From the NCBI RefSeq assembly GCF_001422285.1, contig NZ_LMMO01000003.1, forward strand, positions 387,297 through 451,296: a DNA stretch of 64,000 nucleotides. The letters run 5' to 3'. The notes beneath the pieces are model-generated. The model was not told where the DNA came from. It did not search any database and was given only the letters and a program-made list of their open reading frames with translations. Position numbers and translations under genes: made by a program. This DNA comes from Frigoribacterium sp. Leaf263. GTDB taxonomy: Bacteria > Actinomycetota > Actinomycetes > Actinomycetales > Microbacteriaceae. Below, piece after piece: positions 5,331 through 62,378 of this stretch (within the stretch, counting starts at the first letter, position 1; each line of letters starts with the position of its first letter).

Positions 5331-5347
5331 GAGGAGGCGCGGGTCGG
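5331..5347 (+). repeat. Dispersed repeat GAGGAGGCGCGGGTCGG
   Basis: One full copy of the short element found throughout the window; it ends just before the glgB stop codon (5349-5351). Confidence 0.7.
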
Positions 5348-5348
5348 C

Positions 5349-7583
5349 TCAGGGGCGTCGCTTCAGCCAGAGGACGCCCAGGGGCGGCAGCAGCACGTCG
5401 GCCGAGGCGGGGCGACCAGCCCACGGGGTGTCGGTCGCGACGACGCTGCCCATGTTGCCGACCCCGGAGCCGCCGTACTCGGCGGCGTCGGTGTTGAGGA
5501 TCTCGTGCCAGGTCCCCGCCTCGGGGAACCCGAAGCGCATCTGCACGGGCTGACCCGACCAGTTCGCCAGGACGGCGACGCTCTCGCCGTCACCGGACTT
5601 GCGCATGAACGCGACGACGCTCTGCTGCGCCGCGCCTCCGTCGATCCACTCGAAGCCCTCGGTGTCGAAGTCGTGCGCCCAGAGGGCCTTCTCGGACCGG
5701 TACACGGCGTTGAGCTTGCTGACCAGGTCGAAGAGCTGCTGGTGCTCGTGCCGGTCGAGCACGGACCAGTCGAGACCGTTCTCCTGGCTCCACTCGGTGG
5801 GCTGCCCGTACTCGGACCCCATGAAGAGCAGCTGCTTGCCGGGGTGACCCCACATGTAGGCCAGGTACGCGCGGAGGTTGGCGCGCTTCTGCCAGTCGTC
5901 GCCGGGCATCTTCTCGAAGAGGGATCCCTTGCCGTAGACGACCTCGTCGTGGCTGATCGGGAGCATGAAGTTCTCGCTGAACGCGTAGTGGAACGAGAAG
6001 GTCAGCTCGCCGTGGTGGTACGAGCGGTGGATCGGATCCTTCTCGACGTAGTCGAGGGTGTCGTGCATCCAGCCCATGTTCCACTTCAGCCCGAAGCCGA
6101 GACCGCCGTCGCTCGTGGGGCGTGAGACGCCGGGCCAGCTGGTGCTCTCCTCCGCGATCATGACGATTCCGGGGTGGCGCTTGTACGCGGTGGCGTTGGC
6201 CTCCTGGAGGAACGAGATCGCCTCGAGGTTCTCGCGGCCGCCGAAGCGGTTCGGCAGCCATTGGCCGTCATCGCGGCTGTAGTCGAGGTAGAGCATCGAC
6301 GCGACGGCGTCGACGCGCAGTCCGTCGATGTGGAACTCCTCGAGCCAGTAGAGCGCGTTGGCCACCAGGAAGTTCCGCACCTGCGAGTCCCCGAAGTTGA
6401 ACACCAGGGTGCCCCAGTCGGGCTGCTCGCCGAGACGGGGGTCGGAGTGCTCGTAGACGGCGCGGCCGTCGAAGTTCCCGAGGGCCCATTCGTCTTTGGG
6501 GAAGTGCCCGGGAACCCAGTCCATGATGACGCCGACGCCGGCCGCGTGCAGCCGGTCGATCAGGTACTTCAGGTCGTCGGGGGAGCCGTAGGTGCTCTGC
6601 GGCGCGTAGTAGCCGGTCACCTGGTAGCCCCAGGAGCCGCCGAACGGGTGCTGCGTGAGCGGCATGAACTCGACGTGGGTGAAGCCGAGGGCCGTGACGT
6701 AGTCGACCAGGGGGTCGGCCAGCTCGCGGTACGACAGGCCCGGACGCCACGAGCCCACGTGCAGCTCGTAGACGCTCATCGGGCCGGCGTGCTGGTCGGT
6801 CGCCGCGCGCCGCTCGAGCCAGGCGTCGTCCGACCACGTGTGACCGGAGCGCGTGATGATCGAGGCGGTCGCCGGGGGGACCTCAGCCCGTCGGGCCATC
6901 GGGTCGGCCCGCTCGACCCACACGCCGTCCGGGGTGAGGATCTCGTACTTGTACGTGCCCTCGGTGACGCCGGGCACGAAGATCTCCCAGACCCCGTTGC
7001 CGTCGAGACGGCGGAGGGCGTGCAGGGCGCCGTACCAGCCGTTCAGCTCGCCGATGACGCGCACGGCCTGGGCGTGGGGAGCCCACACGGCGAACGAGGT
7101 GCCCGTGACGCCCTGATGCTCGCGTACGTGCGAACCGAGGACGGTCCAGAGCTGCTCGTGCCGGCCCTCGCCGAACAGGTACAGGTCGAGGTCCGAGACG
7201 GTCGGGGCGAATCGGTAGGGGTCGTCGGCGAGCCAGGGCGCGCCTCCGTCGTACGAGGCCTCGATCTCGTAGCCGCCGAGGGGCGCCGTGGCGACGCCCT
7301 GCCAGAGACCGTGCGCGAGGTGCTCGAGGACGACGACCTCCGAGGAGGCGCCGGTCACCGTGACGGATGCGGCCAGCGGTCGGACGACGCGCACGACGGT
7401 CACGCCGTCGCGGGTGTGCTCGCCGAGCAGCGCGTGCGGGTGGCCGTGGCCACCCTCGGCGGCTGCCGCGACCTCGGCGTCGTCGAGCGGGGGAGCCGAG
7501 GGCGTCGGGGCGGCGACGGCCTCGACGGGGACGTCGGCCGGCGTCGGGTCCTCCGCCGGGGAGGGGGTGAGGGGGGAGGTCAT
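5349..7583 (-). CDS. glgB: 1,4-alpha-glucan branching enzyme GlgB
   Basis: 744 residues. It cuts alpha-1,4 glucan and rejoins the piece through an alpha-1,6 bond, making branches in glycogen-like polymer in the cytosol. After a variable acidic N-terminus (1-45) come an N-terminal beta-sandwich and a CBM48 module (about 50-245), then a GH13 barrel with nucleophile Asp425 (GLRVDAVASM), acid Glu478 (MIAEES) and Asp546 (ISHDE), and a C-terminal beta domain. ATG 7583 has GGAGC upstream and lies 11 bases after the glgE stop, so the two genes are an operon; GlgE supplies the linear chains that GlgB branches. Confidence 0.97.
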   Translation of the reverse strand: MTSPLTPSPAEDPTPADVPVEAVAAPTPSAPPLDDAEVAAAAEGGHGHPHALLGEHTRDGVTVVRVVRPLAASVTVTGASSEVVVLEHLAHGLWQGVATAPLGGYEIEASYDGGAPWLADDPYRFAPTVSDLDLYLFGEGRHEQLWTVLGSHVREHQGVTGTSFAVWAPHAQAVRVIGELNGWYGALHALRRLDGNGVWEIFVPGVTEGTYKYEILTPDGVWVERADPMARRAEVPPATASIITRSGHTWSDDAWLERRAATDQHAGPMSVYELHVGSWRPGLSYRELADPLVDYVTALGFTHVEFMPLTQHPFGGSWGYQVTGYYAPQSTYGSPDDLKYLIDRLHAAGVGVIMDWVPGHFPKDEWALGNFDGRAVYEHSDPRLGEQPDWGTLVFNFGDSQVRNFLVANALYWLEEFHIDGLRVDAVASMLYLDYSRDDGQWLPNRFGGRENLEAISFLQEANATAYKRHPGIVMIAEESTSWPGVSRPTSDGGLGFGLKWNMGWMHDTLDYVEKDPIHRSYHHGELTFSFHYAFSENFMLPISHDEVVYGKGSLFEKMPGDDWQKRANLRAYLAYMWGHPGKQLLFMGSEYGQPTEWSQENGLDWSVLDRHEHQQLFDLVSKLNAVYRSEKALWAHDFDTEGFEWIDGGAAQQSVVAFMRKSGDGESVAVLANWSGQPVQMRFGFPEAGTWHEILNTDAAEYGGSGVGNMGSVVATDTPWAGRPASADVLLPPLGVLWLKRRP

Positions 7584-10589: not shown

Positions 10590-11195
10590 ATGAGCCGACC
10601 GGCAGCCGCCGCGCGTCGTCACCGTGCGGAACCCTCGCGACGAGCCGGCGGTCTCCGCCGGCTCGTCCGATCCACCTGGTCGGCCACCGGCCTCGTCGTC
10701 GTCGGTCTCCTGGCCCTCGTCGCGACCGCCGGCGGCACCTACGCCCTCCTCGGGGCCTCGGCGACCAGCAACGCGTCGGTCATCGCATCCGGCTCCGCCT
10801 CCGTCACCGTGGGCAGCGTCTCGTCGCTCGACGTCGCGAAGCTCGGGCCGGGTCGCTCGGTCTCGGGGACGTTCGTCGTGAGGAACACCGGCACGGTTCC
10901 GCTGCAGCTCCGCCTCACGGGCACGACCCCCACGAGCGTCGACGCCGCGGTGGTGGGCGAGCTCACCGCGGCGGTCGCCGTCCTGCGGAGCGGCTCCTCG
11001 TGCGCGGTCTCGACCGCGGGCGCCTCGACCCGGGCGGCCTCGTTCGACACCGGCGCGTCGTGGGCCGTCCTGCCGGCGGGTCAGTCGCTGACCGCCTGTC
11101 TCGTCCTCGCTCTCGACGCCGACGCTCCGGCCACCGTGCAGAACACGGCCGCCTCCGTCGGGTTCGTCGTCGCCGGGACGCAGGTCGCCCCGTGA
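10590..11195 (+). CDS. SipW-type exported protein 2
   Basis: 201 residues. A basic N-terminus (1-28) leads into one hydrophobic segment (about 32-54, ending GGTYALLGASA) of the same alternate signal type as the preceding protein. The mature domain contains VRNTGTVPLQLRL, a beta-strand pattern common in TasA-like and DUF11-like surface domains, and two cysteines (in SSCAV and TACLV) that could form a disulfide outside the cell. It lies 38 bases after gene 1 and its stop overlaps the next GTG start. Probably a minor subunit or adaptor of the same structure. Confidence 0.7.
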   Translation: MSRPAAAARRHRAEPSRRAGGLRRLVRSTWSATGLVVVGLLALVATAGGTYALLGASATSNASVIASGSASVTVGSVSSLDVAKLGPGRSVSGTFVVRNTGTVPLQLRLTGTTPTSVDAAVVGELTAAVAVLRSGSSCAVSTAGASTRAASFDTGASWAVLPAGQSLTACLVLALDADAPATVQNTAASVGFVVAGTQVAP

Positions 11196-12112
11196 CGCGC
11201 CGTCGCACCCGCCCCGTCGCCCGGCGCGGCCTCGTGCTCGCGCTGCTCGCGGGCGTCGTCATCGGCGCGACGCTCGCGACCGGCGGCGCCGCGGTCGCCC
11301 TCTGGACGACCAGCGCCCCGGCCGCGACGCGCGTCGCCACCGGGGCCGTGGGTCTCAGCGCGACCGACCTCGCGTCCCTCCAGCGCGACTACACGGCCTC
11401 CGTCCCCGCGGTCACCGGATCGTGGTCGTTCACGAACACGGGCACGGTGGACGCCGACTACTCGACCACGGCGTCCCTGGCCTCCGGCAGCTCCGCAGCG
11501 CTCGCGTCCTCGATCTCGGTCGTGGCCTGGCCCGTCGCGCGCGGGCAGACGCCCGCCGCGGCGTGCACGGCGTCCGCAGCGGTCGGAGCCGGCTCGGTCT
11601 CGGGCACGTGGGCCGCGCCTCCTCGGCTCGGCGGGTCGCTCGCAGCGGGCGCGTCGGTCGCCTGGTGCCTCCGCTCGTCGACGTCGACGTCGTCGCCCCT
11701 CGGACGCGTCACGCCCGTGCTGACCGCATCCCTCGCGGCCGGGTCGTGGCGTGCTCCGGCCCAGGAGCGCCGCTTCGTCCAGAACAACACAGTGCCGCCC
11801 CGCCAGACGGCCACCTGCTCGTCCACCGACATCTACTACGCGTGGCTCGACTTCGACCCGTCGGACCGACCCATCGAGACCACCTACGGTTCGTTCGTCG
11901 GATCGACCCGGGTCGGCACGGCCACCGAGACCGGCCACTACCCGCACTTCGCCTTCACCCGCGAGACGCTCCCGAAGAACCCCTACGGCGACGGTCGCAT
12001 CACGGTCGACATCCGCGTGGTGGTCGACGGCGTCGCGGGTGCCGTCGCCGCGACGGGCGTCGTCGTCGCCGGTCAGGACCCGAACGGCCTGAGGAACATC
12101 CAGTGCCCGTGA
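11192..12112 (+). CDS. SipW-type exported protein 3 with extra C-terminal domain
   Basis: 306 residues. An arginine-rich start and a hydrophobic core (about 13-40, with GGAAVALWTTS) give the third alternate signal sequence in a row. Residues 45-185 repeat the fold suggested by protein 2, including the WSFTNTGTVDADYS strand pattern, and carry two cysteines (in AACTA and AWCLR). A further C-terminal region of about 115 residues, with its own cysteine pair (Cys in TATCSS and the penultimate residue), has no counterpart in the other members. The GTG start overlaps the preceding stop (GTGA). Inferred: a tip or anchoring subunit of a surface assembly. Confidence 0.65.
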   Translation: MTRRRTRPVARRGLVLALLAGVVIGATLATGGAAVALWTTSAPAATRVATGAVGLSATDLASLQRDYTASVPAVTGSWSFTNTGTVDADYSTTASLASGSSAALASSISVVAWPVARGQTPAAACTASAAVGAGSVSGTWAAPPRLGGSLAAGASVAWCLRSSTSTSSPLGRVTPVLTASLAAGSWRAPAQERRFVQNNTVPPRQTATCSSTDIYYAWLDFDPSDRPIETTYGSFVGSTRVGTATETGHYPHFAFTRETLPKNPYGDGRITVDIRVVVDGVAGAVAATGVVVAGQDPNGLRNIQCP

Positions 12113-13056
12113 ACGACGACGGGACGGCGCCGGACCCGACGCCCCGCGCCAGGGCGAGTCGCGCCGTGGTGGTCGCCGTCGTCGCAGCCGTGCTGATGCC
12201 GGCGCTCGTCGGCGGGCCGGCGGCGACGGTCGCCCACGCCGCGGCACCCCGCGAGGGTGCCGGCGCGGGGCGACGCGCCGACCCGCCGAGACTCATGCTC
12301 AGCGCCGACGGGCTGCGCTGGCAGGTGCGCCTCACGGCGGGACCCACGGCGGCGGGGGAGGCGCTCGTGCCCGGCGGGACGACCTCGACCACGTTCTGGG
12401 TGAAGAACGTCACCAGCGACCCGGCCGTGCTCGCGGCGCGCGTCGTCGACGTCGAGGTCTCGTCCCCGGCCTTCGCCCGCGATCTGACCGTCACGGCGAC
12501 CCGGGGCGCCGAGACGTCGGCCGACCCGACGCCCTCCCTGCCGCTCGGCTCGCCGGCCTGCACGGCCCTCAGGGCACCGGGGCTGCTCTCGGCCGGGGAG
12601 GAGGCGCCGGTCACCGTGGCGCTCGCACTCGCCGAGAGCGCCACCGGGTCGTCGGCCGGGCAGTCGGTGGGCGTGACCGTGCTCGTGTCGCTCGCGGGAC
12701 GTGCGGGCGACGCCGCCGACGAGTGCCCGTCGCCCGCCGTCCCCGGGGCCGCGATGCTGCGAGGCGGCGAGTGGGACGTCGCGGGAGACGCGGACGTCCG
12801 GTCCGCCGACGGAGTCGTCGCATCGTCGACCGGACCCGTCGCCGCGGGCGCCGCCTCGGGGGAGACCTCCCCCCGGTTCATCGGTCTCCCTCTGCCCGGG
12901 GAATGGCTCCCGCTGCTGCTCGGCGCCGTGTCCCTCCTCGCCGGCGGCTTCGTGGCGCTCGGCCGCCGTCGTCCCGAGGCCCACGCCGACGCGTCCGCCG
13001 ACCCCGGCTCCACCGCCGCCGCGAGCCGCGATGCGACCGACCGGACGGGCGCATGA
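12109..13056 (+). CDS. Exported, membrane-anchored protein of the SipW-type cluster
   Basis: 315 residues. An N-terminal hydrophobic segment (about 19-45, ending VAHAAA) looks like an ordinary cleavable signal peptide. A beta-rich domain follows, with TTSTTFWVKNVTSDPAVL, which resembles the strand pattern of the cluster's other mature domains, and three cysteines. A C-terminal hydrophobic segment (about 264-286) is followed by GRRRPEAH, a stop-transfer tail. No clear LPxTG sortase motif is seen. The GTG at 12109 overlaps the previous stop; an in-frame GTG at 12103 is equally possible. Probably the anchor or assembly factor that holds the secreted subunits at the membrane. Confidence 0.65.
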   Translation: MNDDGTAPDPTPRARASRAVVVAVVAAVLMPALVGGPAATVAHAAAPREGAGAGRRADPPRLMLSADGLRWQVRLTAGPTAAGEALVPGGTTSTTFWVKNVTSDPAVLAARVVDVEVSSPAFARDLTVTATRGAETSADPTPSLPLGSPACTALRAPGLLSAGEEAPVTVALALAESATGSSAGQSVGVTVLVSLAGRAGDAADECPSPAVPGAAMLRGGEWDVAGDADVRSADGVVASSTGPVAAGAASGETSPRFIGLPLPGEWLPLLLGAVSLLAGGFVALGRRRPEAHADASADPGSTAAASRDATDRTGA

Positions 13057-13655
13057 CCGCGCGCCGCGCCTCCTCGGCGGGGACGGGTGCGCTCCACAGC
13101 ATCGGCGTCGGCCTGAGCGCCGGGCTCCTCCTGATCGTGGTCGCGCTCGCCGTGGTGCTCGTCGTCGTGCCGAAGGCGACCGGGTCGACCCCGCTGACGG
13201 TCCTCACCAGCTCGATGGAGCCGAGTCTGCCGCCCGGCACGCTCCTCGTCGTCCGGCCGACGCCCGTCGACGAGATCCGCGTGGGCGACGTGCTGACCTA
13301 CCAGATCGAGTCGGGACGACCGGAGGTCATCAGTCACCGGGTCATCGAGATCGCGTCGTCGTCGGACGGCACCACGTCGTTCGTCACGAAGGGCGACAAC
13401 AACGACGAGGCCGACGACGAGGCCGTGCTGCCGGTCCAGGTCAGGGGGACCCTCTGGTACAGCGTCCCCTGGCTCGGTTTCGTCAATCAGGCGGTGAACG
13501 GGTCGGCGCGCGCCTGGATCGTCCCGCTGCTGGCCGTGGCCCTGTTCGGCTACGCCGGCTACATGATCGTCTCCGGCCTCGTCGCGCACCGCGCGGAGCG
13601 CATCAGGCGGCGGGGGCGCGGCCGTCGTTCGGCGGGGCGCTCGGCGCACGACTGA
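13053..13655 (+). CDS. sipW: Signal peptidase I, SipW (ER/archaeal) type
   Basis: 200 residues. Membrane segments lie at about 20-40 and 165-187, with the catalytic domain between them. The active serine is Ser54 in TSSMEPSLPPG; the usual bacterial lysine is replaced by His95 in ISHRVIEI, and KGDNNDEADD supplies the acidic residues, which is the pattern of SipW and the eukaryotic SEC11 subunit. Enzymes of this class process the alternate signal sequences of TasA-like proteins. The ATG overlaps the preceding stop, so it is translationally coupled to the four exported proteins, which are its probable substrates. The symbol refers to the family type. Confidence 0.88.
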   Translation: MTARRASSAGTGALHSIGVGLSAGLLLIVVALAVVLVVVPKATGSTPLTVLTSSMEPSLPPGTLLVVRPTPVDEIRVGDVLTYQIESGRPEVISHRVIEIASSSDGTTSFVTKGDNNDEADDEAVLPVQVRGTLWYSVPWLGFVNQAVNGSARAWIVPLLAVALFGYAGYMIVSGLVAHRAERIRRRGRGRRSAGRSAHD

Positions 13656-14631: not shown

Positions 14632-15132
14632 TCAGTCCCGTGCCACGGCGGCGTACCGGCCGTTCACGGCCCGCACGAGGTCGTCCGGCGCGATCTCGAC
14701 GTCGAACCCGCGCCTCCCGCCGCTGACGAACACGGTCGTGAAGGAGGCGCAGCTCGCGTCGATCACGGTCGTCGCCGCCGTCCGCTGCCCCAGGGGGCTG
14801 ATGCCGCCCACGACGTAGCCCGTGCGACGTTCGGCGAGGGCCGGGGCGGCCAGCACCGCCTTCTCGGCCCCGACCTCCGTCGCGAGCGCCTTGAGGTCGA
14901 GACGCCGCGAGACGGGCACCACGGCCACGACGAGGGCTCCGTCGGCCTCGACCATGAGCGTCTTGAGCACCCGATCGTCGGAGACCCCGAGGGCGGCGGC
15001 CGCCTCGGCGCCGTAGTCGGTCGCCGTGTCGCGGTGCTCGTAGGGATGCGCGACGAAGGCGATGCCGAGCGCGGTCAGGGCCGAGGTCGCCGGCGTCGAC
15101 GGACCGGACGAGGAGGCGCGGCTCGTCGACAC
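14632..15132 (-). CDS. ybaK: Cys-tRNA(Pro)/Cys-tRNA(Cys) deacylase YbaK
   Basis: 166 residues of the YbaK/EbsC editing-domain fold. Such enzymes hydrolyse mischarged Cys-tRNA(Pro) in trans. Diagnostic parts are the lysine in RVLKTLMVEADGAL, the VPVSRRLDLKALA strand-helix and the glycine-rich GYVVGGISPLGQ. The GTG at 15132 starts eight bases after the glgX stop. The N-terminal codons (TSRASSSGP) are made by a copy of the dispersed repeat at 15110-15121, so the true start could be further in; the fold itself begins near residue 17. Confidence 0.88.
   Translation of the reverse strand: MSTSRASSSGPSTPATSALTALGIAFVAHPYEHRDTATDYGAEAAAALGVSDDRVLKTLMVEADGALVVAVVPVSRRLDLKALATEVGAEKAVLAAPALAERRTGYVVGGISPLGQRTAATTVIDASCASFTTVFVSGGRRGFDVEIAPDDLVRAVNGRYAAVARD
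15110..15121 (+). repeat. Dispersed repeat core inside ybaK
   Basis: GAGGAGGCGCGG, followed by CTCGTCG. It lies in the first codons of ybaK on the opposite strand and encodes the low-complexity RASSS part. Confidence 0.6.
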
Positions 15133-17288: not shown

Positions 17289-18455
17289 ATGACCGTCTAC
17301 CTCGACCACGCCGCCACGACGCCGATGCATCCGGCGGCCCTCTCGGCGTACACGGAGGCCCTCGGCGCGGTCGGCAACCCCTCGTCGATCCACAGCGCGG
17401 GGCAGAGCGCCAGACGGGTCCTCGAGGAGGCGCGGGAGCGCGTCGCCGCCACCCTGGGCTGCGAGCCCATCGAGGTCGTCTTCACCTCGGGCGGCACCGA
17501 GTCCGTCAACCTCGCCCTCAAGGGCCTGTGGTGGGCGCGCCAGTCCGACCGGCCCCGCCCGCGCCTCCTCGTGGCCGCCGGCGAGCACCACGCGACCGTC
17601 GACACCGTCGAGTGGCTCGAGCGGTACGAGGGCGCCCTCGTCACCTGGATCCCCCTCGACGGACTCGGTCGCCTCCGCCTCGACGCCCTCGCCGAGGCGC
17701 TCGAGGCCCACGACGACGTCGCCCTGGTGAGCCTGCTCTGGGCGAACAACGAGGTGGGAACCCTGCAGCCGGTGGCGGAGGTCGCCGCGCTCGCCGAGGC
17801 GCACGGCGTGCCGGTTCATTCGGACGCGGTCGCGGCCTACGGGCAGGTGCCGGTCGACTTCGCCGGATCCGGGCTCGCGGCGCTCAGCGTCAGCGCGCAC
17901 AAGATCGGCGGACCGATCGGGATCGGAGCGCTCGTCCTGTCTCGCACGGCGACGGTGGTCCCGCTCATCCACGGCGGGGGGCAGCAGCGGCAGGTCCGAT
18001 CGGGCACCCAGGACGCCCCGGCGGCCGTCGCCTTCGCCGTCGCCGCCGAGCAGCCCCACACCGACTACGAGCCGCTGCGCGACCGCCTCATCGCGGGCGT
18101 CCGTGCCGCGGTCTCCGGGGCCGTGCTGCGCGGCGACCCCGTCGACCGGCTGCCCGGCAACGCGCATTTCACCTTCGAGGGGTGCGAGGGCGACTCGCTG
18201 CTGTTCCTGCTCGACGCCGCCGGGGTGAGCGTCTCGACCGGCTCCGCCTGCCAGGCGGGCATCCCCGAGCCGTCGCACGTGCTGCTGGCGATGGGGCTGA
18301 CCGACGACGAGGCCCGCGGGGCGCTCCGGATGACCGTCGGGCACACCTCGACCGAAGCCGACGTCGACGCGCTGCTGGCGGCGCTGCCCGACGCGGTCGC
18401 CCGCGCGGGCCGGGCCGGCTACGCCGACCGCACGCCCCTCCTCGGCCACCGCTGA
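17289..18455 (+). CDS. Cysteine desulfurase (NifS/IscS family)
   Basis: 388 residues. This PLP enzyme takes sulfur from cysteine for tRNA thiolation or Fe-S assembly. The N-terminal YLDHAATTP, the PLP lysine Lys205 in SAHKIGG, RSGTQ, and the persulfide cysteine Cys321 in STGSACQAG are all intact; the short loop before that cysteine fits the group that works with MnmA. In many relatives mnmA follows directly; here a small membrane-protein gene and prfB follow instead. ATG 17289 starts the conserved region. No strong Shine-Dalgarno is visible. Confidence 0.93.
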   Translation: MTVYLDHAATTPMHPAALSAYTEALGAVGNPSSIHSAGQSARRVLEEARERVAATLGCEPIEVVFTSGGTESVNLALKGLWWARQSDRPRPRLLVAAGEHHATVDTVEWLERYEGALVTWIPLDGLGRLRLDALAEALEAHDDVALVSLLWANNEVGTLQPVAEVAALAEAHGVPVHSDAVAAYGQVPVDFAGSGLAALSVSAHKIGGPIGIGALVLSRTATVVPLIHGGGQQRQVRSGTQDAPAAVAFAVAAEQPHTDYEPLRDRLIAGVRAAVSGAVLRGDPVDRLPGNAHFTFEGCEGDSLLFLLDAAGVSVSTGSACQAGIPEPSHVLLAMGLTDDEARGALRMTVGHTSTEADVDALLAALPDAVARAGRAGYADRTPLLGHR

Positions 18456-22113: not shown

Positions 22114-22590
22114 GTGGCGAAAGAACGCGGCGAGAAGGTCGTGGCCACCAATCGTCGGGCGCGCCACGACTACACGATCGAGAGCACGTACGAGGCCGGC
22201 ATGGTGCTGAGCGGGACCGAGGTCAAGGCCCTGCGTCAGGGCCGGGCGTCGCTCGTCGACGGGTACGCCTTCGTCGAGAACGGCGAGGCCTGGCTCGACG
22301 CCGTGCACATCCCCGAGTACACGGAGGGCACGTGGAACAACCATGCGCCGCGTCGCAAGCGGAAGCTGCTCCTGCACAAGCAGGAGATCGTCAAGATCGG
22401 CCAGAAGACGAAAGAGGGCGGCTTCACGATCGTGCCGCTCAAGATGTACTTCAGCGACGGCCGTGCCAAGGTCGAGATCGCGGTGGCCAAGGGCAAGCGC
22501 GAGTACGACAAGCGTCAGACGCTCCGCGAGCGGACGGCGACCCGCGAGGCGCAGTCCGCGATGTCGGCGCGCAAGCACCTCGGCGAGTAG
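22114..22590 (+). CDS. smpB: SsrA-binding protein SmpB
   Basis: 158 residues. It binds tmRNA and takes the place of the missing anticodon arm when tmRNA enters stalled ribosomes. The conserved [17 protein letters not shown] start, [10 protein letters not shown] and AHIPEYTEG-like VHIPEYTEG segment, and a lysine/arginine-rich C-terminal tail are present. GTG 22114 has a strong AGGAGG seven bases upstream. It lies directly before ssrA, its RNA partner, but each has its own promoter. Confidence 0.97.
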
Positions 22591-22612
22591 CGGCGGTCTC
22601 CGTCTCCTGTCG

Positions 22613-22654
22613 CCGCGCCTCCCGGGCCTGCGGTCGCTGGACGAGGAGGCGCGG
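22613..22654. repeat. Inverted pair of the dispersed repeat before ssrA
   Basis: CCGCGCCTCC at 22613-22622 faces GAGGAGGCGCGG at 22643-22654, giving a ten-base stem with a 22-base loop. The right arm is the spacer of the ssrA promoter; the left arm lies just after smpB and may help end its transcript. Confidence 0.55.
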
Positions 22655-22666
22655 AGGGCTTACACT
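22638..22666 (+). promoter_or_regulatory. ssrA promoter
   Basis: -35 TGGACG (22638-22643), 17-base spacer, -10 TACACT (22661-22666). Transcription would begin near 22673, leaving a precursor leader of about 64 bases before the mature tmRNA. Confidence 0.65.
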
Positions 22667-45024: not shown

Positions 45025-45926
45025 ACGACGCTCCCGGCCTGCTCGCGACGACGGAGGCGCGCCGAGAGCCAGTCGGTCAGCCACAGCGTCGGCAGGGCCA
45101 GCAGCACGAAGAGCAGCCCGGCGAGCACGTACGGCGTGAAGTTCGCGGCGGTGGCCGTCTCGATCTGCGCGGCCCGGACGGCGTCGACCGCGCCGAGGAC
45201 GGAGATGAGGCCGACGTCCTTCTGCATCGAGACGAAGTCGTTCATGAGAGCGGGGGTCACCTTGCGGATGGCCTGAGGGAACACCACGAGGCGGAGGGTC
45301 TTGGCATGGCCGAGCCCGAGCGATCGGGCGGCGAGCCTCTGAGACGGGTGCACGGCGTCGATGCCGGCGCGCACGACCTCGGACACGTAGGCCGAGTAGG
45401 TCAGCACCAGCGCGATGGTGCCCCAGAACTCGGCAGGGAGGCGCGGGATGCCGAGACCGAGGCCCGGGATGCCGAAGCCGACGAGGTACAGGACGATGAT
45501 CAGCGGCAGGCCCCGGAACATGTCGGTGTAGCCGCGGACGAGAGCTCGGACCGGGAAGAACACCGGGCCGCGGAGGGTCCGGAGGGCCGACAGGACGGTC
45601 GCCAGGACGGCGACGCCGAGGGCGGCGACGACGAGCACGCGCACGTTGAGCCAGAGGCCCTCGAGCACGCGCGGCCAGGCCGCCACGAGGGTCGGACCGT
45701 CGAAGAAGCTGAACCGCACGCGCTCCCACCCGGGCGTGCTCGTGACCGCCCACCAGGCGAGCCCGGCGAAGACCACCGTGCTGATCACGGCGACGAGCAC
45801 GGAGCGGACGGACTGCCGGCGGCGATAGGCGCGGCGTCCGATCTCGAGATCGCTGACGGGGGGAGCCCCCGTCGCGACCGCGGTGGGCGCTACGAGAGGT
45901 CCTTGACGTCGTAGTCGGCGAGCCAC
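45021..45926 (-). CDS. Polar amino-acid ABC transporter permease
   Basis: 301 residues, with about five or six membrane helices (first near 40-62). The HisM/GlnP-family EAA loop is YVSEVVRAGIDAVHPSQRLAARSLGLG (in parts EVVRAGIDAVHPSQ and AARSLGLG) followed by VVFPQAIRKVTPALMNDF. The start is uncertain: GTG 45926 makes the gene overlap the binding-protein gene by 37 bases, but no better start is found before the first helix. It forms the membrane channel with the ATPase at 44251. Confidence 0.9.
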   Translation of the reverse strand: MARRLRRQGPLVAPTAVATGAPPVSDLEIGRRAYRRRQSVRSVLVAVISTVVFAGLAWWAVTSTPGWERVRFSFFDGPTLVAAWPRVLEGLWLNVRVLVVAALGVAVLATVLSALRTLRGPVFFPVRALVRGYTDMFRGLPLIIVLYLVGFGIPGLGLGIPRLPAEFWGTIALVLTYSAYVSEVVRAGIDAVHPSQRLAARSLGLGHAKTLRLVVFPQAIRKVTPALMNDFVSMQKDVGLISVLGAVDAVRAAQIETATAANFTPYVLAGLLFVLLALPTLWLTDWLSARLRRREQAGSVV

Positions 45927-46798: not shown

Positions 46799-48088
46799 AT
46801 GACCGTCGCCGCGCCTCCCGAGATCGTCGCGGCGCGGACGCCCCTCGGCCGGCGGCTCGTCGTGGTCGGGCGGCGACGCGAGATCCTCTGGATCGCCTTC
46901 GCCGTCGTGCACCTCGTCGTCGCCTGGATCGCCCTGGTCGGGCCCGACCAGTCGCTCGGCGACGTCCGGACCGTCTACCGGTCGTGGATGGACCAGGCCG
47001 TGTCGGGCGGCGACCGGGTCGGGATCGACGTCGCCTGGGTCTACCCCCTGCTCGCGGCCGTCCCGATGCTCGTCGCGCGGCTCGGCGGCGCCGCGGACTA
47101 CGCGACCGTGTGGCTCGTCGTCGTGGTCGCCCTCGACGCGGTCGCCTTCGCCGTCATCACGCGGCGACGGACGCCCTCGACGACGACGGCCGCCTGGTGG
47201 TGGCTGCTGTTCGTCGCGGCGCTCGGTCCCATCGCCCTCGGGCGAATCGACGCGGTGACCGTGGCGCTGGCCCTGATCGGCGTGCTGCTCGTCGCCGAGC
47301 GGCCCGTGGCGGCTTCCGTCGTGCTGACGATCGCGGCCTGGGTGAAGGTGTGGCCCGCGGCCCTCGTGGGCGCGGCCGTGCTCGCCTCGCGGCGCGGGCC
47401 GGCGATCGTCGTCGCCGCCGTCGCGACCACGGCCGCCGTCGTCGCCGTCTCGCTGGCGCTCGGCAGCGGCGCCACCGTGCTCGGCTTCATCGGACAGCAG
47501 GCGGGCCGGGGGCTGCAGATCGAATCGCCGGCCGCGACGCCGTGGCTCTGGCGGGCCGCCGCCGGCGTGACGGGCACGGCCGTCTACTACGACCAGCAGA
47601 TCCTGACCTTCCAGGTGCAGGGCGACGGCGTGGGTCTCGCCGCCCGGGCGACGACCGTCGTGATGGCGGTGGTGGTCGGAGGCGTGGTGCTGCTCGGTCT
47701 GCGGGCGCGACTGGCGGGTGCGGCCGCCCCGCACCTCCTCGGCCCACTGGCCCTGGCGCTGACGACCGCCCTGATCGTCACGAACAAGGTCGGCTCGCCC
47801 CAGTTCGTGTCGTGGCTGGCCGTGCCCGTGGTCGTCGGACTCGTCGCGTCGCGCACCGGCGGACCGTCGTTCCGGGTCCCGGCGGGGCTCGCCCTGGGCA
47901 TCGCTGCGCTGACCCAGCTGATCTACCCGTGGTTCTACGACGACCTGCTGCGGGTCGAGCCGTGGATGCTCGTCGTCATCACCCTGCGGAACCTCTGCGA
48001 GGTCGTTCTGCTCGTCGTCGGCTGCATCATGCTCTGGCGTCTCGGGGGAGTGCGCCGCGGCCCGGCCGCTGACAGGATGAGCGCATGA
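46799..48088 (+). CDS. GT87-like polyprenyl-phosphate-mannose mannosyltransferase
   Basis: 429 residues with about ten to eleven membrane helices. The extracellular first loop carries an aspartate (GPDQSLGDVRTVYRSW), and YPLLAAVPM, WVKVWPAAL and TNKVGSPQFVSWL are the pattern of GT-C family 87 (PimE-like) enzymes, which use polyprenol-phosphate-mannose to decorate lipids or glycans at the outer face of the membrane. Leaderless start. The stop overlaps the next ATG. Confidence 0.75.
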   Translation: MTVAAPPEIVAARTPLGRRLVVVGRRREILWIAFAVVHLVVAWIALVGPDQSLGDVRTVYRSWMDQAVSGGDRVGIDVAWVYPLLAAVPMLVARLGGAADYATVWLVVVVALDAVAFAVITRRRTPSTTTAAWWWLLFVAALGPIALGRIDAVTVALALIGVLLVAERPVAASVVLTIAAWVKVWPAALVGAAVLASRRGPAIVVAAVATTAAVVAVSLALGSGATVLGFIGQQAGRGLQIESPAATPWLWRAAAGVTGTAVYYDQQILTFQVQGDGVGLAARATTVVMAVVVGGVVLLGLRARLAGAAAPHLLGPLALALTTALIVTNKVGSPQFVSWLAVPVVVGLVASRTGGPSFRVPAGLALGIAALTQLIYPWFYDDLLRVEPWMLVVITLRNLCEVVLLVVGCIMLWRLGGVRRGPAADRMSA

Positions 48089-49873: not shown

Positions 49874-49884
49874 CCGCGCCTCCT
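49874..49884 (-). repeat. Dispersed repeat copy
   Basis: AGGAGGCGCGG on the minus strand, 27 bases before the -35 of the MFS promoter. Confidence 0.55.
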
Positions 49885-49900: not shown

Positions 49901-49930
49901 CTGTCACCGCGCCTCCCGAGGTCGTAAGCT
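49901..49930 (+). promoter_or_regulatory. Promoter of the DHA1 transporter gene, repeat in spacer
   Basis: CTGTCA, 18 bases, TAAGCT. The spacer begins with CCGCGCCTCC, the reverse-strand repeat core, as in the ssrA promoter where the forward core is the spacer. Confidence 0.5.
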
Positions 49931-49975: not shown

Positions 49976-49990
49976 CAGGAGGCGCGGTCC
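49976..49990 (+). repeat. Dispersed repeat copy in the MFS leader
   Basis: CAGGAGGCGCGGTCC in the predicted leader of the DHA1 transporter mRNA; it can pair with the copies upstream in DNA but only with itself in RNA. Confidence 0.5.
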
Positions 49991-51365: not shown

Positions 51366-51396
51366 GGCTCCCGGGCCGGGGTGAGGCCCGGCAGGA

Positions 51397-51446
51397 GACG
51401 AGCCGAGGAGGCGCGGGTCGGGTGACCCGCGCCTCCTCGGCTCGTC
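51397..51446. terminator. Perfect hairpin made of two dispersed repeats
   Basis: A 23-base perfect stem (51397-51419 with 51424-51446; core GAGGAGGCGCGGGTC) and loop GGGT between the convergent MFS and LuxR genes. This is the fullest version of the repeat in inverted pair form and very likely terminates both transcripts. Confidence 0.75.
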
Positions 51447-51456
51447 CGTGACGCGG

Positions 51457-55929: not shown

Positions 55930-55946
55930 GGGTCCCCATCCTGGTG

Positions 55947-56009
55947 GAGCCGAGGAGGCGCGGTGCGATTGTTACCGCACCGCACCGCGCCTCCCCGTCC
56001 TCCCGGCTC
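55947..56009. repeat. Inverted pair of dispersed repeats between metY and metX
   Basis: Left arm GAGCCGAGGAGGCGCGGTGC (55947-55966) pairs with CGCACCGCGCCTCC (55981-55994) and, after an eight-base insertion, CGGCTC. The right arm reaches the metY stop codon (56008-56010). Confidence 0.65.
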
Positions 56010-57527: not shown

Positions 57528-58316
57528 ATGACGAAGCGTGTCGTGGTGACAGGGGCCAGCTCGGGGATCGGGGCGGCGACGGTCCGTCTGTTCCGCCGGC
57601 GGGGCTGGGACGTGATCGCCGTCGCCCGACGGGAGGACCGCCTCCGCGAGCTCGCCGCCGAGACCGGGGCGACCTGGTTCCAGGCCGACGTCACGGTGGA
57701 CGCCGACGTCGCCGCGCTCCGCGAGCACGTCGAGTCGACCGGGGTGCTCGACGCGCTGGTGAACAACGCGGGCGGCGCCTTCGGCCTGGACAGCGTCGAG
57801 GCGGGCTCGATCGAGGACTGGCAGCGCATGTTCGACGTCAACGTGCTCGGCACGAAGCGCGCGGTGTCGGCGCTCCTGCCGTCGCTCCGTCGCGGTGCGG
57901 ACCACGCGAGGGCCGGAGGGGGACCGGGAGGCGCGGACATCGTCACGGTGACCTCGATCGCCGGTCATGTCGCCTACGAGAACGGCGGCGGATACAACGC
58001 CTCGAAGTTCGCGGAGCACGCCCTGGTGGCCGTGCTGCGCCTCGAGCTGTCCGGTGAGCCGATCCGGGTCGTGGAGATCGCCCCCGGCATGGTGCACACG
58101 GAGGAGTTCTCCGTGAACCGCTTCGCGGGCGATCAGGATCGGGCCGACGCGGTCTACCGCGACGTCGAGGGGCCGCTCGTCGCCGACGACGTGGCGGAGG
58201 CCATCGTCCATGCGGTCGAGCTGCCGCCGCACGTCAACCTCGATCTCGTCACGGTCAAGCCCGTGGCCCAGGCCGCGCCCCACAAGGTCGCCAAGGGAGT
58301 GCTCGAGACGCGCTGA
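57528..58316 (+). CDS. SDR-family NAD(P)-dependent oxidoreductase
   Basis: 262 residues, classical short-chain dehydrogenase: VVVTGASSGIGAAT at the start, DALVNNAGGAFG, the serine in TVTSIAGHVAYE and the YxxxK pair in GGYNASKFAEHAL. The cofactor site with an arginine after the first strand (AVARRED) suggests NADP. It resembles the YdfG/serine-dehydrogenase-like branch, but the substrate is unknown. ATG 57528 has GAGGAG six bases upstream. TAGCGT (57457-57462) may be its -10 box. Confidence 0.9.
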   Translation: MTKRVVVTGASSGIGAATVRLFRRRGWDVIAVARREDRLRELAAETGATWFQADVTVDADVAALREHVESTGVLDALVNNAGGAFGLDSVEAGSIEDWQRMFDVNVLGTKRAVSALLPSLRRGADHARAGGGPGGADIVTVTSIAGHVAYENGGGYNASKFAEHALVAVLRLELSGEPIRVVEIAPGMVHTEEFSVNRFAGDQDRADAVYRDVEGPLVADDVAEAIVHAVELPPHVNLDLVTVKPVAQAAPHKVAKGVLETR

Positions 58317-59122: not shown

Positions 59123-60010
59123 ATGAACCAGGTGTTCCCCACGCCCGAAAACGGCGCCGCTCCCCGTATCTCGATCGTCGTCCCCGCCCGGAACGAAGCC
59201 CGCAACCTCGAGATCGTCCTCCCGATGCTCCCGTCCGTCCACGAGGTCATCCTCGTCGACGGCAACTCGGTCGACGACACCATCGCGACCGCTCAGCGCG
59301 TCATGCCCGACATCAAGGTCGTCCGCCAGAGCCGCAAGGGCAAGGGCAACGCCCTGGCCTGCGGCTTCGAGGCCGCGACCGGCGACATCATCGTCATGTT
59401 CGACGCCGACGGCTCCGCCGACCCGGCCGAGATCCCCCGCTTCGTCGAGGCGCTCACCTCGGGCGCCGACGTCGCCAAGGGCAGCCGCTTCGTCCACGGC
59501 GGCGGCAGCGAGGACATCACGCGATTCCGCGCCCTCGGCAACTGGGGCCTCAACGCCCTCACCAACCTGCTCCTCGGCACGAAGTACACCGACCTCTGCT
59601 ACGGCTACAACGCCTTCTGGGCTCGCATCGTGCCGAGCCTCGAGCTGCTGCCCTCCGATCTCGCGCCCCGCGCCGACGGTCAGATGCACAACGGCGACGG
59701 CTTCGAGATCGAGACGATCCTCAACTGCCGCATCGCCGCTCTCGGCTACGACATCGTCGAGGTCCCGAGCGTCGAGAAGCTCCGCATCCACGGCACGAGC
59801 AACCTGAACGCGATCTCCGACGGCTTCCGCGTGCTGCGCGTGATCCTCGAGGAGCGTCGTCGTCGCCCGTCCGGCGCGGCCCGCATGCGCCGCATCCGCG
59901 AGTCCGCTCTGACGGCGGCCCAGGCCACCGACGAGCCGGCACCCGTCTTCGCGGTCATCGACGGCGCCCGTGGGGACGCCCGACTCGGAGCCCGCCAGGA
60001 CGTCGCGTGA
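59123..60010 (+). CDS. Family 2 glycosyltransferase (polyprenyl-phosphate mannose-synthase-like)
   Basis: 295 residues, GT-A fold. The nucleotide site is ISIVVPARNEARNLE and VDGNSVDDTI, the metal site DADGS (in IIVMFDADGSADPAE), and the acceptor region LCYGYNAFW, with KLRIHGTSNLNA near 230. No membrane helix is present, unlike typical dolichyl-phosphate-mannose synthases with an anchor. ATG 59123 has AAGGA four bases upstream. It is the first of four overlapping genes that probably build and acylate a surface glycan. Confidence 0.88.
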   Translation: MNQVFPTPENGAAPRISIVVPARNEARNLEIVLPMLPSVHEVILVDGNSVDDTIATAQRVMPDIKVVRQSRKGKGNALACGFEAATGDIIVMFDADGSADPAEIPRFVEALTSGADVAKGSRFVHGGGSEDITRFRALGNWGLNALTNLLLGTKYTDLCYGYNAFWARIVPSLELLPSDLAPRADGQMHNGDGFEIETILNCRIAALGYDIVEVPSVEKLRIHGTSNLNAISDGFRVLRVILEERRRRPSGAARMRRIRESALTAAQATDEPAPVFAVIDGARGDARLGARQDVA

Positions 60011-61017
60011 CCCTGCGGTCGACGACGGTCTCCGTCATCGTCTGCGCGTACACCGAAGACCGCTGGGACGATCTCGTCGCCTCGGTGGAGTCCGTGCGCG
60101 GACTCCCCGAGGGGCCCGAGGTCGTGCTCGTGATCGACCACAACGATGCGCTGCTCGCCCGCTCGCGGAAGCGGTGGGTCGACGTGGTCGTGGCCCCGAA
60201 CGAATTCCGCCAGGGGCTCTCGGGCGCGCGCAACACGGGGGTCCGCCTCGCCGCGGGCGACGTCGTCGCGTTCCTCGACGACGACGCCTCCGCCGACCCC
60301 GCCTGGCTCACGCATCTGCTCGGCCCCTTCGCCGACGCCCGCGTGGCCGGCGTCGGCGGCCATGCGACCCCCGTGTGGCCGGACGGCGGCAACACCCTCT
60401 ACCCGCCCGAGCTGCTCTGGATCGTCGGCTGCAGCCACCGGGGTCTGCCGACCGAGCTCTCGGCCGTGCGCAACGTGATCGGCTGCTCGATGGCCTTCCG
60501 CCGCGAGAGCATCCTCGACGTCGGGGGATTCAACCTCGACACCGGCCGGGTCGGCGCGATCCCGCTCGGCGGCGAGGAGACCGATCTCTGCATCCGCATC
60601 CGCCAGGCCGATCCGACCGCCCGCATCGTGCTCGAGCCCCGTGCCGACGTGCGGCACCACGTCACCGCGAACCGGGTCACCTGGGCCTACCTCCGTCGTC
60701 GCTCGTTCTACGAGGGCGTCTCGAAGGCGGCTCTCAGCCGGCAGCTGGGCGCCTCGGACTCCCTCTCGAGCGAGTCGGCCTACCTGCGTCGCGACATCCC
60801 GCGCGCGGCCCTCCGCGAGCTGCGCTCGATCGGACGAGGAGGCGCGGGTCGTCTCCTCGCGCTCGTCACCGCCGTCGTGGCCACCGTGGCCGGCTACGCC
60901 CTCGGCAGCCTCCGCCGCGCCTCCCTGGCTCCCGTCGACCCCGTCGCCGGCCGAGCGCTCCTCACCCGCGACTCGACGCGGCCGGCCACGGCCGGCCGGA
61001 CGGACGGCACCTCATGA
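60007..61017 (+). CDS. Family 2 glycosyltransferase, second of operon
   Basis: 336 residues. VSVIVCAYTEDRWDDL opens the GT-A fold; FLDDDASADPAWL is the metal-binding site and LGGEETDLCIRIR the catalytic-base region. A C-terminal hydrophobic segment (about 283-303) may associate with the membrane. Two dispersed repeat copies (60833-60853 and 60915-60931) code for GRGGAGR and RRASLAP on either side of that segment. GTG 60007 overlaps the preceding stop. Confidence 0.88.
   Translation: MTLRSTTVSVIVCAYTEDRWDDLVASVESVRGLPEGPEVVLVIDHNDALLARSRKRWVDVVVAPNEFRQGLSGARNTGVRLAAGDVVAFLDDDASADPAWLTHLLGPFADARVAGVGGHATPVWPDGGNTLYPPELLWIVGCSHRGLPTELSAVRNVIGCSMAFRRESILDVGGFNLDTGRVGAIPLGGEETDLCIRIRQADPTARIVLEPRADVRHHVTANRVTWAYLRRRSFYEGVSKAALSRQLGASDSLSSESAYLRRDIPRAALRELRSIGRGGAGRLLALVTAVVATVAGYALGSLRRASLAPVDPVAGRALLTRDSTRPATAGRTDGTS
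60833..60853 (+). repeat. Dispersed repeat inside the second glycosyltransferase
   Basis: GACGAGGAGGCGCGGGTCGT is read in frame as GRGGAGR just before a membrane segment; an inverted core lies at 60915-60931. Confidence 0.5.
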
Positions 61018-62378
61018 CAGATCTCCACCTCGTCCGGCCCATGGCCGGCTCCAGCGCGCCCACCTGGGAGGGCGCGCTCTGGATCGGCGCCATCGACGCC
61101 GACGACCTCGCCCGCCCGGATCTCGGCGACGTCGTGCTGACGGACCCCGAGGGGCACCGCGGCGCGCGGCTGCTCGTCCGCCGCGGTCGGAGCGTGCTCG
61201 GCTTCGTCGACGCGCCCGTCGTCGACGGACGGGTCTCGGTGGACCTGCTGCGGTCGGAGGTCGCCTCCCTTCCGGAGGCCCTGACCCCCGTCGAACCGAT
61301 CCACCTGCCGACGGCGACCGTGGTGCTCTGCACGCGGGACCGCGCCGATCACCTCCGTGGTGCGCTGCGGAGCGTCCTCCGACTCGACTACCCCTCGTTC
61401 GACGTCATCGTCGTCGATAACGCCGCGGCGACCGACGAGACCCGCGATCTGGTCCGCACAGAGTTCGACGATCCGCGCGTGCGGTACCTCGAGGAGCCGG
61501 TGCCCGGACTCTCCAGCGCCCGCAACGCCGGCCTCGCCGCCGCGACCGGCGAGATCGTCGCCTTCACGGACGACGACGTCATCGTCGACGACCAGTGGCT
61601 CCACGGCCTCGCCGCCGGATTCGCCCACGGCGAGGACGTCGTGTGCGTCTCGGGTCTCGTCCCGAGCGGCGAGCTGCGCACGCCCGTGCAGCGCTTCTTC
61701 GACGACCGCGTCTCGTGGTCCCGCAACGTCTCGACCCGCGTGTTCCGGCTCGCCGAGCCGCCGGCCGACCTTCCGCTGTTCCCCTTCTCCGTCGGCGCCT
61801 TCGGCACCGGTGCCAACTTCGCGCTCCGGCGTCGCCCCGCCGTGCTGCTCGGCGGGTTCGACACCGCCTTCGGCGTCGGCACCCCGACCGGCGGCGGCGA
61901 GGACCTCGACGTCTTCACCCGCGTCCTGCTGGCCGGTCACGCCCTCGTCGTCGAGCCGTCGGCGCTCGTCTGGCACCGTCATCGCTCGGATCTCGCCGCC
62001 CTGCGACTGCAGGCGACGGGCTACGGCACGGGTCTCGGCGCGTGGCTGACGAAGATCGCGCTCGACCCCGCGAGCCTCCGACTGGCACTGCGTCGCGCCC
62101 CCGGGGCGATCCGGGTGCTCGCCGCGAAACGCCGCGTCGACGCACCGATGGGCGAGGGGACGGAGTCGCCCCGCGCCTCCTCGGCTCCGCGCGACGTCGA
62201 TCTCGATCGCGAGATCGCCCGCACGGCACGGCACGAGCTCGTGTCCGTCGCCCGCGGTCCTCTGCTCTACCTCCGTCAGCGTCGTCGTGGCGCGGGGCTC
62301 ATGGGCCACCGCGTGCCGGCCGGCGAGACGCAGGGCGTCCCGGGCGGCTCGTCGAGCGTCGCCGAGAGGGCACGATGA
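61014..62378 (+). CDS. Family 2 glycosyltransferase with N-terminal extension
   Basis: 454 residues. Residues 1-95 are an extra N-terminal region absent from its neighbours (WEGALWIGAIDADDL); the GT-A domain starts at TATVVLCTRDRADHL, with TDDDVIVDD as the metal site and GGGEDLDVFTRVL near the catalytic base. The C-terminal 90 residues are basic and contain SPRASSAPRD, specified by a dispersed repeat. ATG 61014 overlaps the previous stop by four bases, and its own stop overlaps the acyltransferase gene. Confidence 0.87.
   Translation: MTDLHLVRPMAGSSAPTWEGALWIGAIDADDLARPDLGDVVLTDPEGHRGARLLVRRGRSVLGFVDAPVVDGRVSVDLLRSEVASLPEALTPVEPIHLPTATVVLCTRDRADHLRGALRSVLRLDYPSFDVIVVDNAAATDETRDLVRTEFDDPRVRYLEEPVPGLSSARNAGLAAATGEIVAFTDDDVIVDDQWLHGLAAGFAHGEDVVCVSGLVPSGELRTPVQRFFDDRVSWSRNVSTRVFRLAEPPADLPLFPFSVGAFGTGANFALRRRPAVLLGGFDTAFGVGTPTGGGEDLDVFTRVLLAGHALVVEPSALVWHRHRSDLAALRLQATGYGTGLGAWLTKIALDPASLRLALRRAPGAIRVLAAKRRVDAPMGEGTESPRASSAPRDVDLDREIARTARHELVSVARGPLLYLRQRRRGAGLMGHRVPAGETQGVPGGSSSVAERAR
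62171..62187 (-). repeat. Dispersed repeat in the third glycosyltransferase
   Basis: Minus-strand GAGCCGAGGAGGCGCGG; on the coding strand it gives PRASSA in a disordered stretch, as in the first CNNM protein. Confidence 0.6.

Follow-up and report, generated by a model that had tools for sequence, protein, structure and literature searches.

A short, exact and strand-neutral word in Frigoribacterium that may act as a DNA uptake signal

Copies of the repeat in a 64-kb window

The genome of Frigoribacterium sp. Leaf263, a member of the Microbacteriaceae (Actinomycetota), contains a short dispersed repeat with the ten-base core GGAGGCGCGG. We analyzed this repeat in a stretch of 64,000 nucleotides (contig NZ_LMMO01000003.1, positions 387,297 to 451,296), referred to as the window, whose first base is position 1 in the coordinates below; signs in parentheses denote strands. 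The window contains 32 exact copies of the core, of which 15 are on the plus strand and 17 on the minus strand; the expectation is 1.82 (standard deviation (SD) 1.22, maximum 5) from 100 dinucleotide-preserving shuffles. The repeat had been noticed by a model that saw only the sequence (the original prediction). Its estimate of two copies by chance agrees with the shuffles, but its count of about 22 cores was too low; the 20 positions that it listed all correspond to exact copies, with an offset of 0–3 bases. The repeat is real, and it is larger than first reported.

Eighteen of the 32 copies are located inside genes of at least 60 codons. Those in the left part of the window are found in a DivIVA-domain gene (383–2233(−); copy at 1226–1235(+)), a glgB-like gene (5349–7583(−); 5630–5639(−)) and the called genes 11192–12112(+) (11613–11622(−), preceded by an AGCCGA 5′ flank) and 13053–13655(+) (13064–13073(−)). 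Two copies are present in a tRNA_edit gene (14632–15132(−)), at 14708–14717(−) and, at the start of the gene, at 15112–15121(+), and two in an Aminotran_5 gene (17289–18455(+)), at 17426–17435(+) and 17559–17568(−). Further copies lie inside aroA (30358–31773(−); 31657–31666(+)), a sigma-70 gene (31870–32568(+); 32271–32280(−)), an Oxidored_FMN gene (41345–42478(−); 42271–42280(−)) and a BPD_transp_1 gene (45021–45800(−); 45437–45446(+)), near the end of a CNNM/CBS gene (38883–40274(+); 40220–40229(−), with both the AGCCGA flank and a GTCGG tail) and at the start of the called gene 46799–48088(+) (46809–46818(−)). The remaining four are in an adh_short gene (57528–58316(+); 57927–57936(+)), the called gene 60007–61017(+) (60838–60847(+) and 60915–60924(−)) and a Glycos_transf_2 gene (61041–62378(+); 62171–62180(−)).

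The intergenic copies include 5333–5342(+), with a GTCGG tail, and 32828–32837(+). Another, 26552–26561(+), directly follows the stop codon of gene 25331–26548(+) and also has a GTCGG tail, while 29193–29202(−), with the AGCCGA flank and the GTCGG tail, separates genes 28346–29161(−) and 29225–30349(−). The copy at 28169–28178(+) was counted as intergenic; the 46-codon open reading frame (ORF) called at this position is doubtful. Two copies, 22613–22622(−) and 22645–22654(+), are located between smpB and the gene for transfer-messenger RNA (tmRNA; 22737–23114 according to ARAGORN); they form a spaced pair in the region 22590–22737, with the second core just upstream of a TACACT box. Three copies, 49874–49883(−), 49907–49916(−) and 49978–49987(+), form an intergenic cluster. 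Finally, 51407–51416(+) and 51427–51436(−) are the left and right arms of a perfect hairpin (51390–51450) between convergent genes, and 55954–55963(+) and 55985–55994(−) those of a second intergenic hairpin (55945–56002).

Abundance and consensus in the whole genome

The original prediction had proposed counting the repeat over the whole genome against controls. In the whole assembly (3,243,570 bases in 10 contigs), the core occurs 694 times in forward and 727 times in reverse orientation, 1,421 copies in total or about one per 2.3 kb, whereas the same word read backwards, used as a control, occurs 103 times (50 and 53). The extended 13-mer GAGGAGGCGCGGG has 369 copies against 3 for its backwards control, and the 16-mer GAGGAGGCGCGGGTCG has 219 (110 and 109) against 0. 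The counts could have been those predicted by composition and codon use; an excess was found both genome-wide and, as described below, over codon permutations.

Positional statistics on this genome were obtained from samples of 464 or 644 kb, about 14–20% of the genome, taken solely from contigs C1 and C3 according to position. Under an order-5 Markov model, the most over-represented words of 8, 9, 10, 12 and 14 bases in the 464-kb sample are the motif or its extensions. The fuller consensus is GCCGA-GGAGGCGCGG-GTCGG, with flanks that are far weaker than the core: of the 301 core copies in 644 kb, 144 match GAGGAGGCGCGG, 85 match GGAGGCGCGGGTCG and 53 match the complete 16-mer, which has six copies in the window. 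The form CGAGCCGAGGAGGCGCGG, to which many copies had been thought to extend, accounts for only 4 of the 32 copies in the window and 9 of the 301. Neighboring copies are at most 100 bases apart in 30 of 217 cases, where 12 are expected. Same-orientation clusters of two or three cores were seen at L019:1680–1732, L021:10597–10710 and L023:17629–17652, copies elsewhere being mostly isolated. A search of titles and abstract openings in the open-access PubMed Central literature, which included uptake signals in Actinobacteria, yielded no description of this motif.

Copies within genes are not explained by codon use

For gene calling we used a home-made program based on codon usage instead of a standard annotator (434 genes, 88% coding). 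In the 464-kb sample, 150 of the 238 copies are wholly within coding sequence, 84 are intergenic and 4 straddle gene ends; in the 644-kb sample, from which genes shorter than 60 codons were dropped, the corresponding numbers are 193, 104 and 4 of 301. The claim that the copies lie mostly at gene ends and between genes is therefore contradicted, since most are coding, although the density of cores in intergenic DNA is about three times that in coding DNA. Intergenic copies in the 464-kb sample number 80 against 1.1 under an order-2 model, so that the intergenic excess on which the original prediction depended is present.

In the 464-kb sample, synonymous permutation within genes gave 15.95 coding copies (SD 4.0, largest 27; 100 permutations) and junction-preserving synonymous permutation gave 13.6 (SD 3.3, largest 20; 30 permutations), against the 150 observed. 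A similar result was obtained for the 644-kb sample, with 193 perfect coding cores against 16 in codon permutations, which is about 12-fold. The reversed word showed no excess in coding sequence (14 copies against 22.3 and 15.4 in the two types of permutation). We rejected an artefact of codon usage because coding copies are about ten times as numerous as in synonymous permutations. In six permutations each, a coding excess was also observed in the genomes G002 (65 against 6.7), G006 (18 against 2.0) and G084 (11 against 2.3) and, with small numbers, in two samples from Curtobacterium (4 against 0.8 and 8 against 0.8).

The repeat has no preferred strand

Coding copies in the 644-kb sample are oriented like their gene in 95 cases and opposite to it in 98. 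Because of this equality a signal acting at the RNA level is unlikely and was rejected, including the RNA-processing signal suggested originally. Plus- and minus-strand copies (157 and 141) are distributed homogeneously over 32 stretches of 20 kb (p = 0.94), and copies split 151 to 150 relative to the local GC skew. The count by replichore strand that had been proposed at the outset was made in G007, a complete single-contig genome with dnaA at 218 kb and a terminus taken to lie opposite the origin. Its 125 plus-strand copies of a 13-mer split 57 to 68 between the replichores, where 100 copies were placed from the matches listed and the other 25 were put beyond the last listed position. Given the 57/68 and 151/150 splits, a strong bias of the kind known for Chi or the FtsK-orienting polar sequences (KOPS) is absent.

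Exactness, conservation and turnover

The 30 words that differ from the core at one position together have 338 copies in coding sequence against 281 (SD 17) in 10 permutations, a 1.2-fold excess, which is mostly due to the last two positions (the form with C as its last base has 52 copies against 25) and position 6 (T; 18 against 6). Codon permutations were used here instead of a Markov model, since the motif's own hexamers inflate the Markov expectations; the direction was the same with both. A decaying repeat family would leave abundant near-copies; the one-mismatch forms are hardly enriched.

Conservation was determined by comparison with the sister species G002, to which 220 kb were aligned at 84.5% identity, excluding alignments of fewer than 400 columns or less than 72% identity and copies within 25–35 bases of an alignment end. 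Copies of the Leaf263 genome are exact in G002 at 38 of 57 coding and 20 of 33 intergenic sites, and those of G002 are exact in Leaf263 at 38 of 53 and 20 of 35 sites, respectively. Composition-matched ten-base coding words are exact in only 3,845 of 21,617 cases (17.8%; binomial p = 5e-16 for the core against these words). Around exact coding copies, the identity of the flanks to G002 is 82%, which is no better than average.

Of the 34 coding sites that are not exact in one direction or the other, 15 have a gap in the site itself. The other 19 differ without a gap in the site; 7 of these have gaps in their flanks and were dropped, which leaves 12. These 12 sites have 36 nucleotide and 9 amino-acid differences, 4 of them being wholly synonymous, and since their alignments are free of gaps and equal in length in both species, they have changed by substitution. 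At the Aminotran_5 copy at 17426, the peptide EEAR is encoded with the motif in Leaf263 but by a sequence that lacks it in G002; the motif is absent from this site in G014 as well. Together, these sites indicate that substitutions at a site can create or abolish a copy. Some of the intergenic differences between the sister species resemble segments that were gained or lost.

Individual sites in the window have had different fates. The second Aminotran_5 copy (17559) is intact in G002 and G014, the tRNA_edit copy at 14708 in G014 but not in G002, the Oxidored_FMN copy in all three aligned congeners, and the BPD_transp_1 copy in G002, with four mismatches in G011 and two in G014. In the smpB–tmRNA interval, the copy at 22613 is missing in G002, and the one at 22645 is exact in G014 and has one mismatch in G002. 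Among 15 congeners, the aroA copy is exact in seven, has one mismatch in seven and two in one, and the sigma-70 copy is exact in ten.

Distribution among the Microbacteriaceae

Among AroA proteins, the closest named sequences to that of this genome are from Frigoribacterium, at 82–84% identity. We then compared the core with its backwards control in 299 Microbacteriaceae genomes. It is strongly enriched in all seven Frigoribacterium genomes drawn, including that of Leaf263 (842–1,421 copies, controls 103–148), and likewise in all six Curtobacterium genomes (genus g47; 216–688 copies, controls 61–118). In genus g70, it is strongly enriched in one genome (G084; 399 copies against 142), and four others are without clear enrichment. 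In the remaining genomes, for which the list was read by eye, the core is near or below its control; the largest excess among others with more than 100 copies is 133 against 98 (G153, g70), and exceptions with small numbers occur, such as G080 (17 against 5). Genus g47 is Curtobacterium, as counts in genomes reached through named loci of that genus coincide with those in g47 genomes (G336 with G134, G338 with G283). Twenty named genomes gave the same picture: 903–1,378 copies in four Frigoribacterium (controls 52–148) and 140–928 in nine Curtobacterium (controls 56–122), whereas one genome each of Clavibacter, Frondihabitans, Arenivirga, Leifsonia, Naasia, Cryobacterium and Microbacterium have 16–119 copies, each below its own control. 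Thus, the comparison with related genera advocated in the original prediction shows enrichment in Frigoribacterium, Curtobacterium and one g70 genome, and nearly all other sampled Microbacteriaceae are without it. The 16-mer is present in 35–251 copies in 15 of 15 congeners and in at most one copy in 24 genomes of other genera, and in 396 genomes of the order, a draw without other Frigoribacterium, the 13-mer has at most 11 copies in any genome except Leaf263. A scan of IMG/VR for the 16-mer gave 50 contigs with a single match in each.

The sequences around the core differ between the genera. Frigoribacterium has GCCGA-core-GTCGG and Curtobacterium has the dialect CGGMCT-core-TGCC. In two Curtobacterium samples with 18 copies each, the core has CGGCCT or CGGACT on its 5′ side and often TGCC on its 3′ side, and the copies frequently form inverted repeats; these words were taken from single-genome samples, as pooled k-mers are inflated by orthologous loci. 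The flanks also vary inside Frigoribacterium, between two groups of species that we separated according to their 16-mer counts. In Frigoribacterium endophyticum (G006; L139–L142), the variant GGAGTCGCGG has 15 copies against 1.7 expected, beside the standard core, and is possibly a second dialect carried by the same genome.

Surveying k-mers in other genera revealed different motifs but not this one. In several of these Microbacteriaceae genera, the word CGGATGYCG (reverse complement CGRCATCCG) is enriched in coding sequence about 4–6-fold over synonymous permutations, with 19 copies against 3.3 in G016 (L106–L108), 19 against 5.2 in G021 (L115–L117) and 14 against 2.8 in G023 (L121–L122). The strand counts are 14/13, 16/21 and 9/8 in G016, G021 and G023, and less even in G022 (5/11) and G017 (11/3). 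This word is possibly a further signal of this type and could be another such language in other Microbacteriaceae. In G021, GCGACATCC has 19 copies against 3.7 in synonymous permutations. In G022 (L118–L120), the intergenic word GCGAGGCGCGGC, with 11 copies in 60 kb, is part of a longer GCGTGGCGAGGCGCGGC-like form and has GAGGCGCGG in common with the Frigoribacterium motif.

Competence genes

In the Leaf263 genome, comEA directly precedes comEC. The ComEC protein is intact, and ComEA has SLBB and helix-hairpin-helix domains. In addition, the region L025:623–3117 contains the reading frame of a T2SSE ATPase (375–378 amino acids), followed by genes for a T2SSF protein and a DUF4244 protein of 81 amino acids. 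We read this as a putative small Tad/Flp-like locus, in which the DUF4244 protein may be a Flp-like pilin. Natural transformation has been reported for two Microbacteriaceae, Rhodoluna lacicola and Aurantimicrobium photophilum (PMC11577799). According to a review, homologues of both comEA and comEC are present in Micrococcus luteus, which requires Flp pili for transformation (PMC6370729).

Discussion

Known uptake signals are exact words of 9–12 bp with hundreds to thousands of copies per genome, which lie on both strands and in coding as well as intergenic DNA, are exactly conserved above background, exist as dialects that share a core in related genera and are found in genomes with a competence apparatus. 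GGAGGCGCGG shows these features. It lies in and between genes on either strand, exceeds the matched background in the sister species (38/57 against 17.8%) and has dialects around a common core in Frigoribacterium and Curtobacterium; the genome has comEA, comEC, the T2SSE ATPase and T2SSF, although these are non-specific. A strand-neutral, exact and conserved word in and between genes, beyond what codon use explains, with dialects and occasional hairpins, is by analogy the profile of the DNA uptake sequences (DUS) of Neisseria and the uptake signal sequences (USS) of Haemophilus. The likeliest of the readings compared here is that GGAGGCGCGG is a genus-specific DNA uptake signal for self-recognition, working like DUS and USS; we put the probability of this reading at roughly one half. 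It is classed here as working like an uptake signal and not as a proven member of the class.

According to this model, a surface DNA receptor of the competence apparatus, consisting of a Tad/Flp-type pilus, ComEA and ComEC, would bind DNA that carries the motif. The bound DNA would enter as a single strand and recombine with the chromosome, so that alleles with a perfect motif would be taken up more often and copies would spread, being kept exact wherever the sequence tolerates them, including in genes. Receptor binding, preferred uptake, a role in termination and the drive that would maintain the copies are what we infer from these patterns. More tentatively, and with a little less confidence than we have in the signal itself, we suggest that a signal for the uptake of self-DNA arose in Frigoribacterium and Curtobacterium separately from those of the Neisseriaceae and Pasteurellaceae; it would be the third such signal known and the first from Gram-positive bacteria, would have a dialect in each genus and would possibly be read by a Tad/Flp-type pilus.

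Several observations weigh against an uptake signal. The requirement for a perfect word is not absolute, because one-mismatch forms in coding sequence are exact in G002 in 38 of 105 cases, above the 17.8% of matched words, and the variants at the last two bases are raised. Turnover is fast: where alignments with the 15 congeners exist, comparing each site with each species gives exact copies in only 35 of 105 cases for coding and 18 of 63 for intergenic sites, a count that is without a matched control and takes the doubtful ORF at 28169 as coding. The 22 coding sites with gaps in the site or its flanks give no information on how the copies arose. DNA that does not align to G002, in which depletion was expected, has 9 copies in 21 kb and aligned DNA 51 in 123 kb, both 0.42 per kb; these stretches are few and are not necessarily foreign. 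Spacing of the cores is near random (coefficient of variation 0.98), and their density rises with GC content, from 1.60 per 5 kb in the lowest fifth to 3.15 in the highest. In the two Curtobacterium samples, 24 of the 36 copies are intergenic, as terminators would predict. Of the 40 relatives sampled, 39 have ComEC, whether or not they carry the motif, so that the machinery does not explain the distribution of the motif and is permissive evidence only. No receptor candidate was singled out; in known systems, the receptors are ComP in Neisseriaceae and a predicted minor pilin in Pasteurellaceae (PMC12616744). Finally, we found no report of competence in Frigoribacterium, with the search inside papers on the genus limited to a term search of one (PMC12823222).

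The main rival is that the word is the binding site of an abundant chromosomal protein acting in nucleoid organization, segregation, repair or regulation, with each site selected individually. We regard this as unlikely, although less so than the other alternatives. The repeat is a strand-neutral, exact and conserved signal at the DNA level, as such a site would be, several copies lie near gene ends and upstream of tmRNA, and the density is equal in shared and unshared DNA. The chromosome-organizing site that had been suggested at first is thus compatible with the data, but an uptake signal fits them better. The matS, SlmA and Noc sites number in the tens, far fewer than some 1,400 exact ten-base sites, 63% of which are genic in the sample. 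Moreover, the core is constant from one genus to the other but its flanking bases are not, and rapid gain and loss at orthologous positions would be odd under site-by-site selection. To our knowledge, the abundance, exactness, dialects and coding location of the repeat fit an uptake signal better than any known architecture site.

A second alternative is that the copies are arms of terminator hairpins, their sequence being fixed by copying. The hairpin between convergent genes at 51390–51450 folds at −58.1 kcal/mol (z −9.4) and that at 55945–56002 at −37.9 kcal/mol (z −5.5). At the former locus, G002 has a motif hairpin with a different outer sequence, and G011 and G014 have, as judged by eye, hairpin-like sequences without the motif, which speaks for this reading, as does the frequency of inverted intergenic pairs among the Curtobacterium copies shown. 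However, an inverted repeat at a gene end, as expected for intrinsic terminators, applies to at most 24 of the 301 copies: only 12 inverted pairs within 40 bases were detected in 644 kb, 6 of them in called coding sequence, and this reading does not account for the single copies in genes, which occur in both orientations. Terminators are thus an improbable explanation for the repeat as a whole. A few inverted intergenic pairs may also serve as terminators, termination being probably a side use at best.

Equally improbable is a recombination or segregation signal. Chi and KOPS are short over-represented words, and the repeat resembles them in being an abundant, genus-specific short word. It differs in having no replichore strand bias (57/68 in G007, 151/150 by local GC skew), on which ground this candidate was rejected, and its extended flanks make it longer than Chi and KOPS.

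Least probable of all, by a small step, is a mobile repeat moved by a REP-associated tyrosine transposase (RAYT) or another transposase, in the manner of repetitive extragenic palindromes (REPs) or miniature inverted-repeat transposable elements. REP/RAYT repeats are short, GC-rich, dispersed and partly palindromic, and so is this one, which also has the threefold intergenic enrichment, some clusters and pairs, and some intergenic differences between the sister species that look like gained or lost segments. The REP-like element of the original prediction was nevertheless rejected: REPs are extragenic whereas 150 of 238 copies are coding, most copies are unpaired (24 of 301 in inverted pairs), and the recommended search for a RAYT-type transposase (Y1_Tnp, PF01797, E ≤ 0.001) had no match in this genome (99.95% complete), whereas the control search was positive in 5 of 14 genomes. 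In addition, one-mismatch decay products are hardly enriched in coding sequence, and the 12 coding sites that differ do so with no change in length between the sister species.

If the repeat is an uptake signal, it would be a third unrelated case, in Actinobacteria, meaning that biased uptake evolves repeatedly and in a quite different envelope, and the receptor could be sought by comparing dialects. Even if this is wrong, about 1,400 exact, strand-neutral and conserved sites per genome need explaining.

One of the closest parallels is with the DUS of the Neisseriaceae. DUS have about 2,000 copies at a spacing of about 1,150–1,500 nt, are exactly conserved to 71%, serve as terminators when in inverted pairs (PMC2397512) and occur as dialects (PMC3630211). 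The Frigoribacterium repeat shares with DUS a ten-base core, a copy number of about a thousand or more, a spacing of 1–2 kb, genic and intergenic locations, inverted hairpin pairs, exact conservation above background and dialects among related genera (PMC3630211, PMC2397512). It differs in its unrelated sequence, its actinobacterial host, its few inverted pairs and in being known from sequence alone; its 67% exact conservation is between two species at 84.5% identity. The USS of the Pasteurellaceae number about 1,500 copies per genome and have extended, weaker flanks. The repeat resembles them in copy number, in its weaker extended flanks and in its occurrence on both strands; unlike USS, which are unrelated in sequence, it has no AT-rich flanks, is found in a Gram-positive host and has been seen so far only in genome data.

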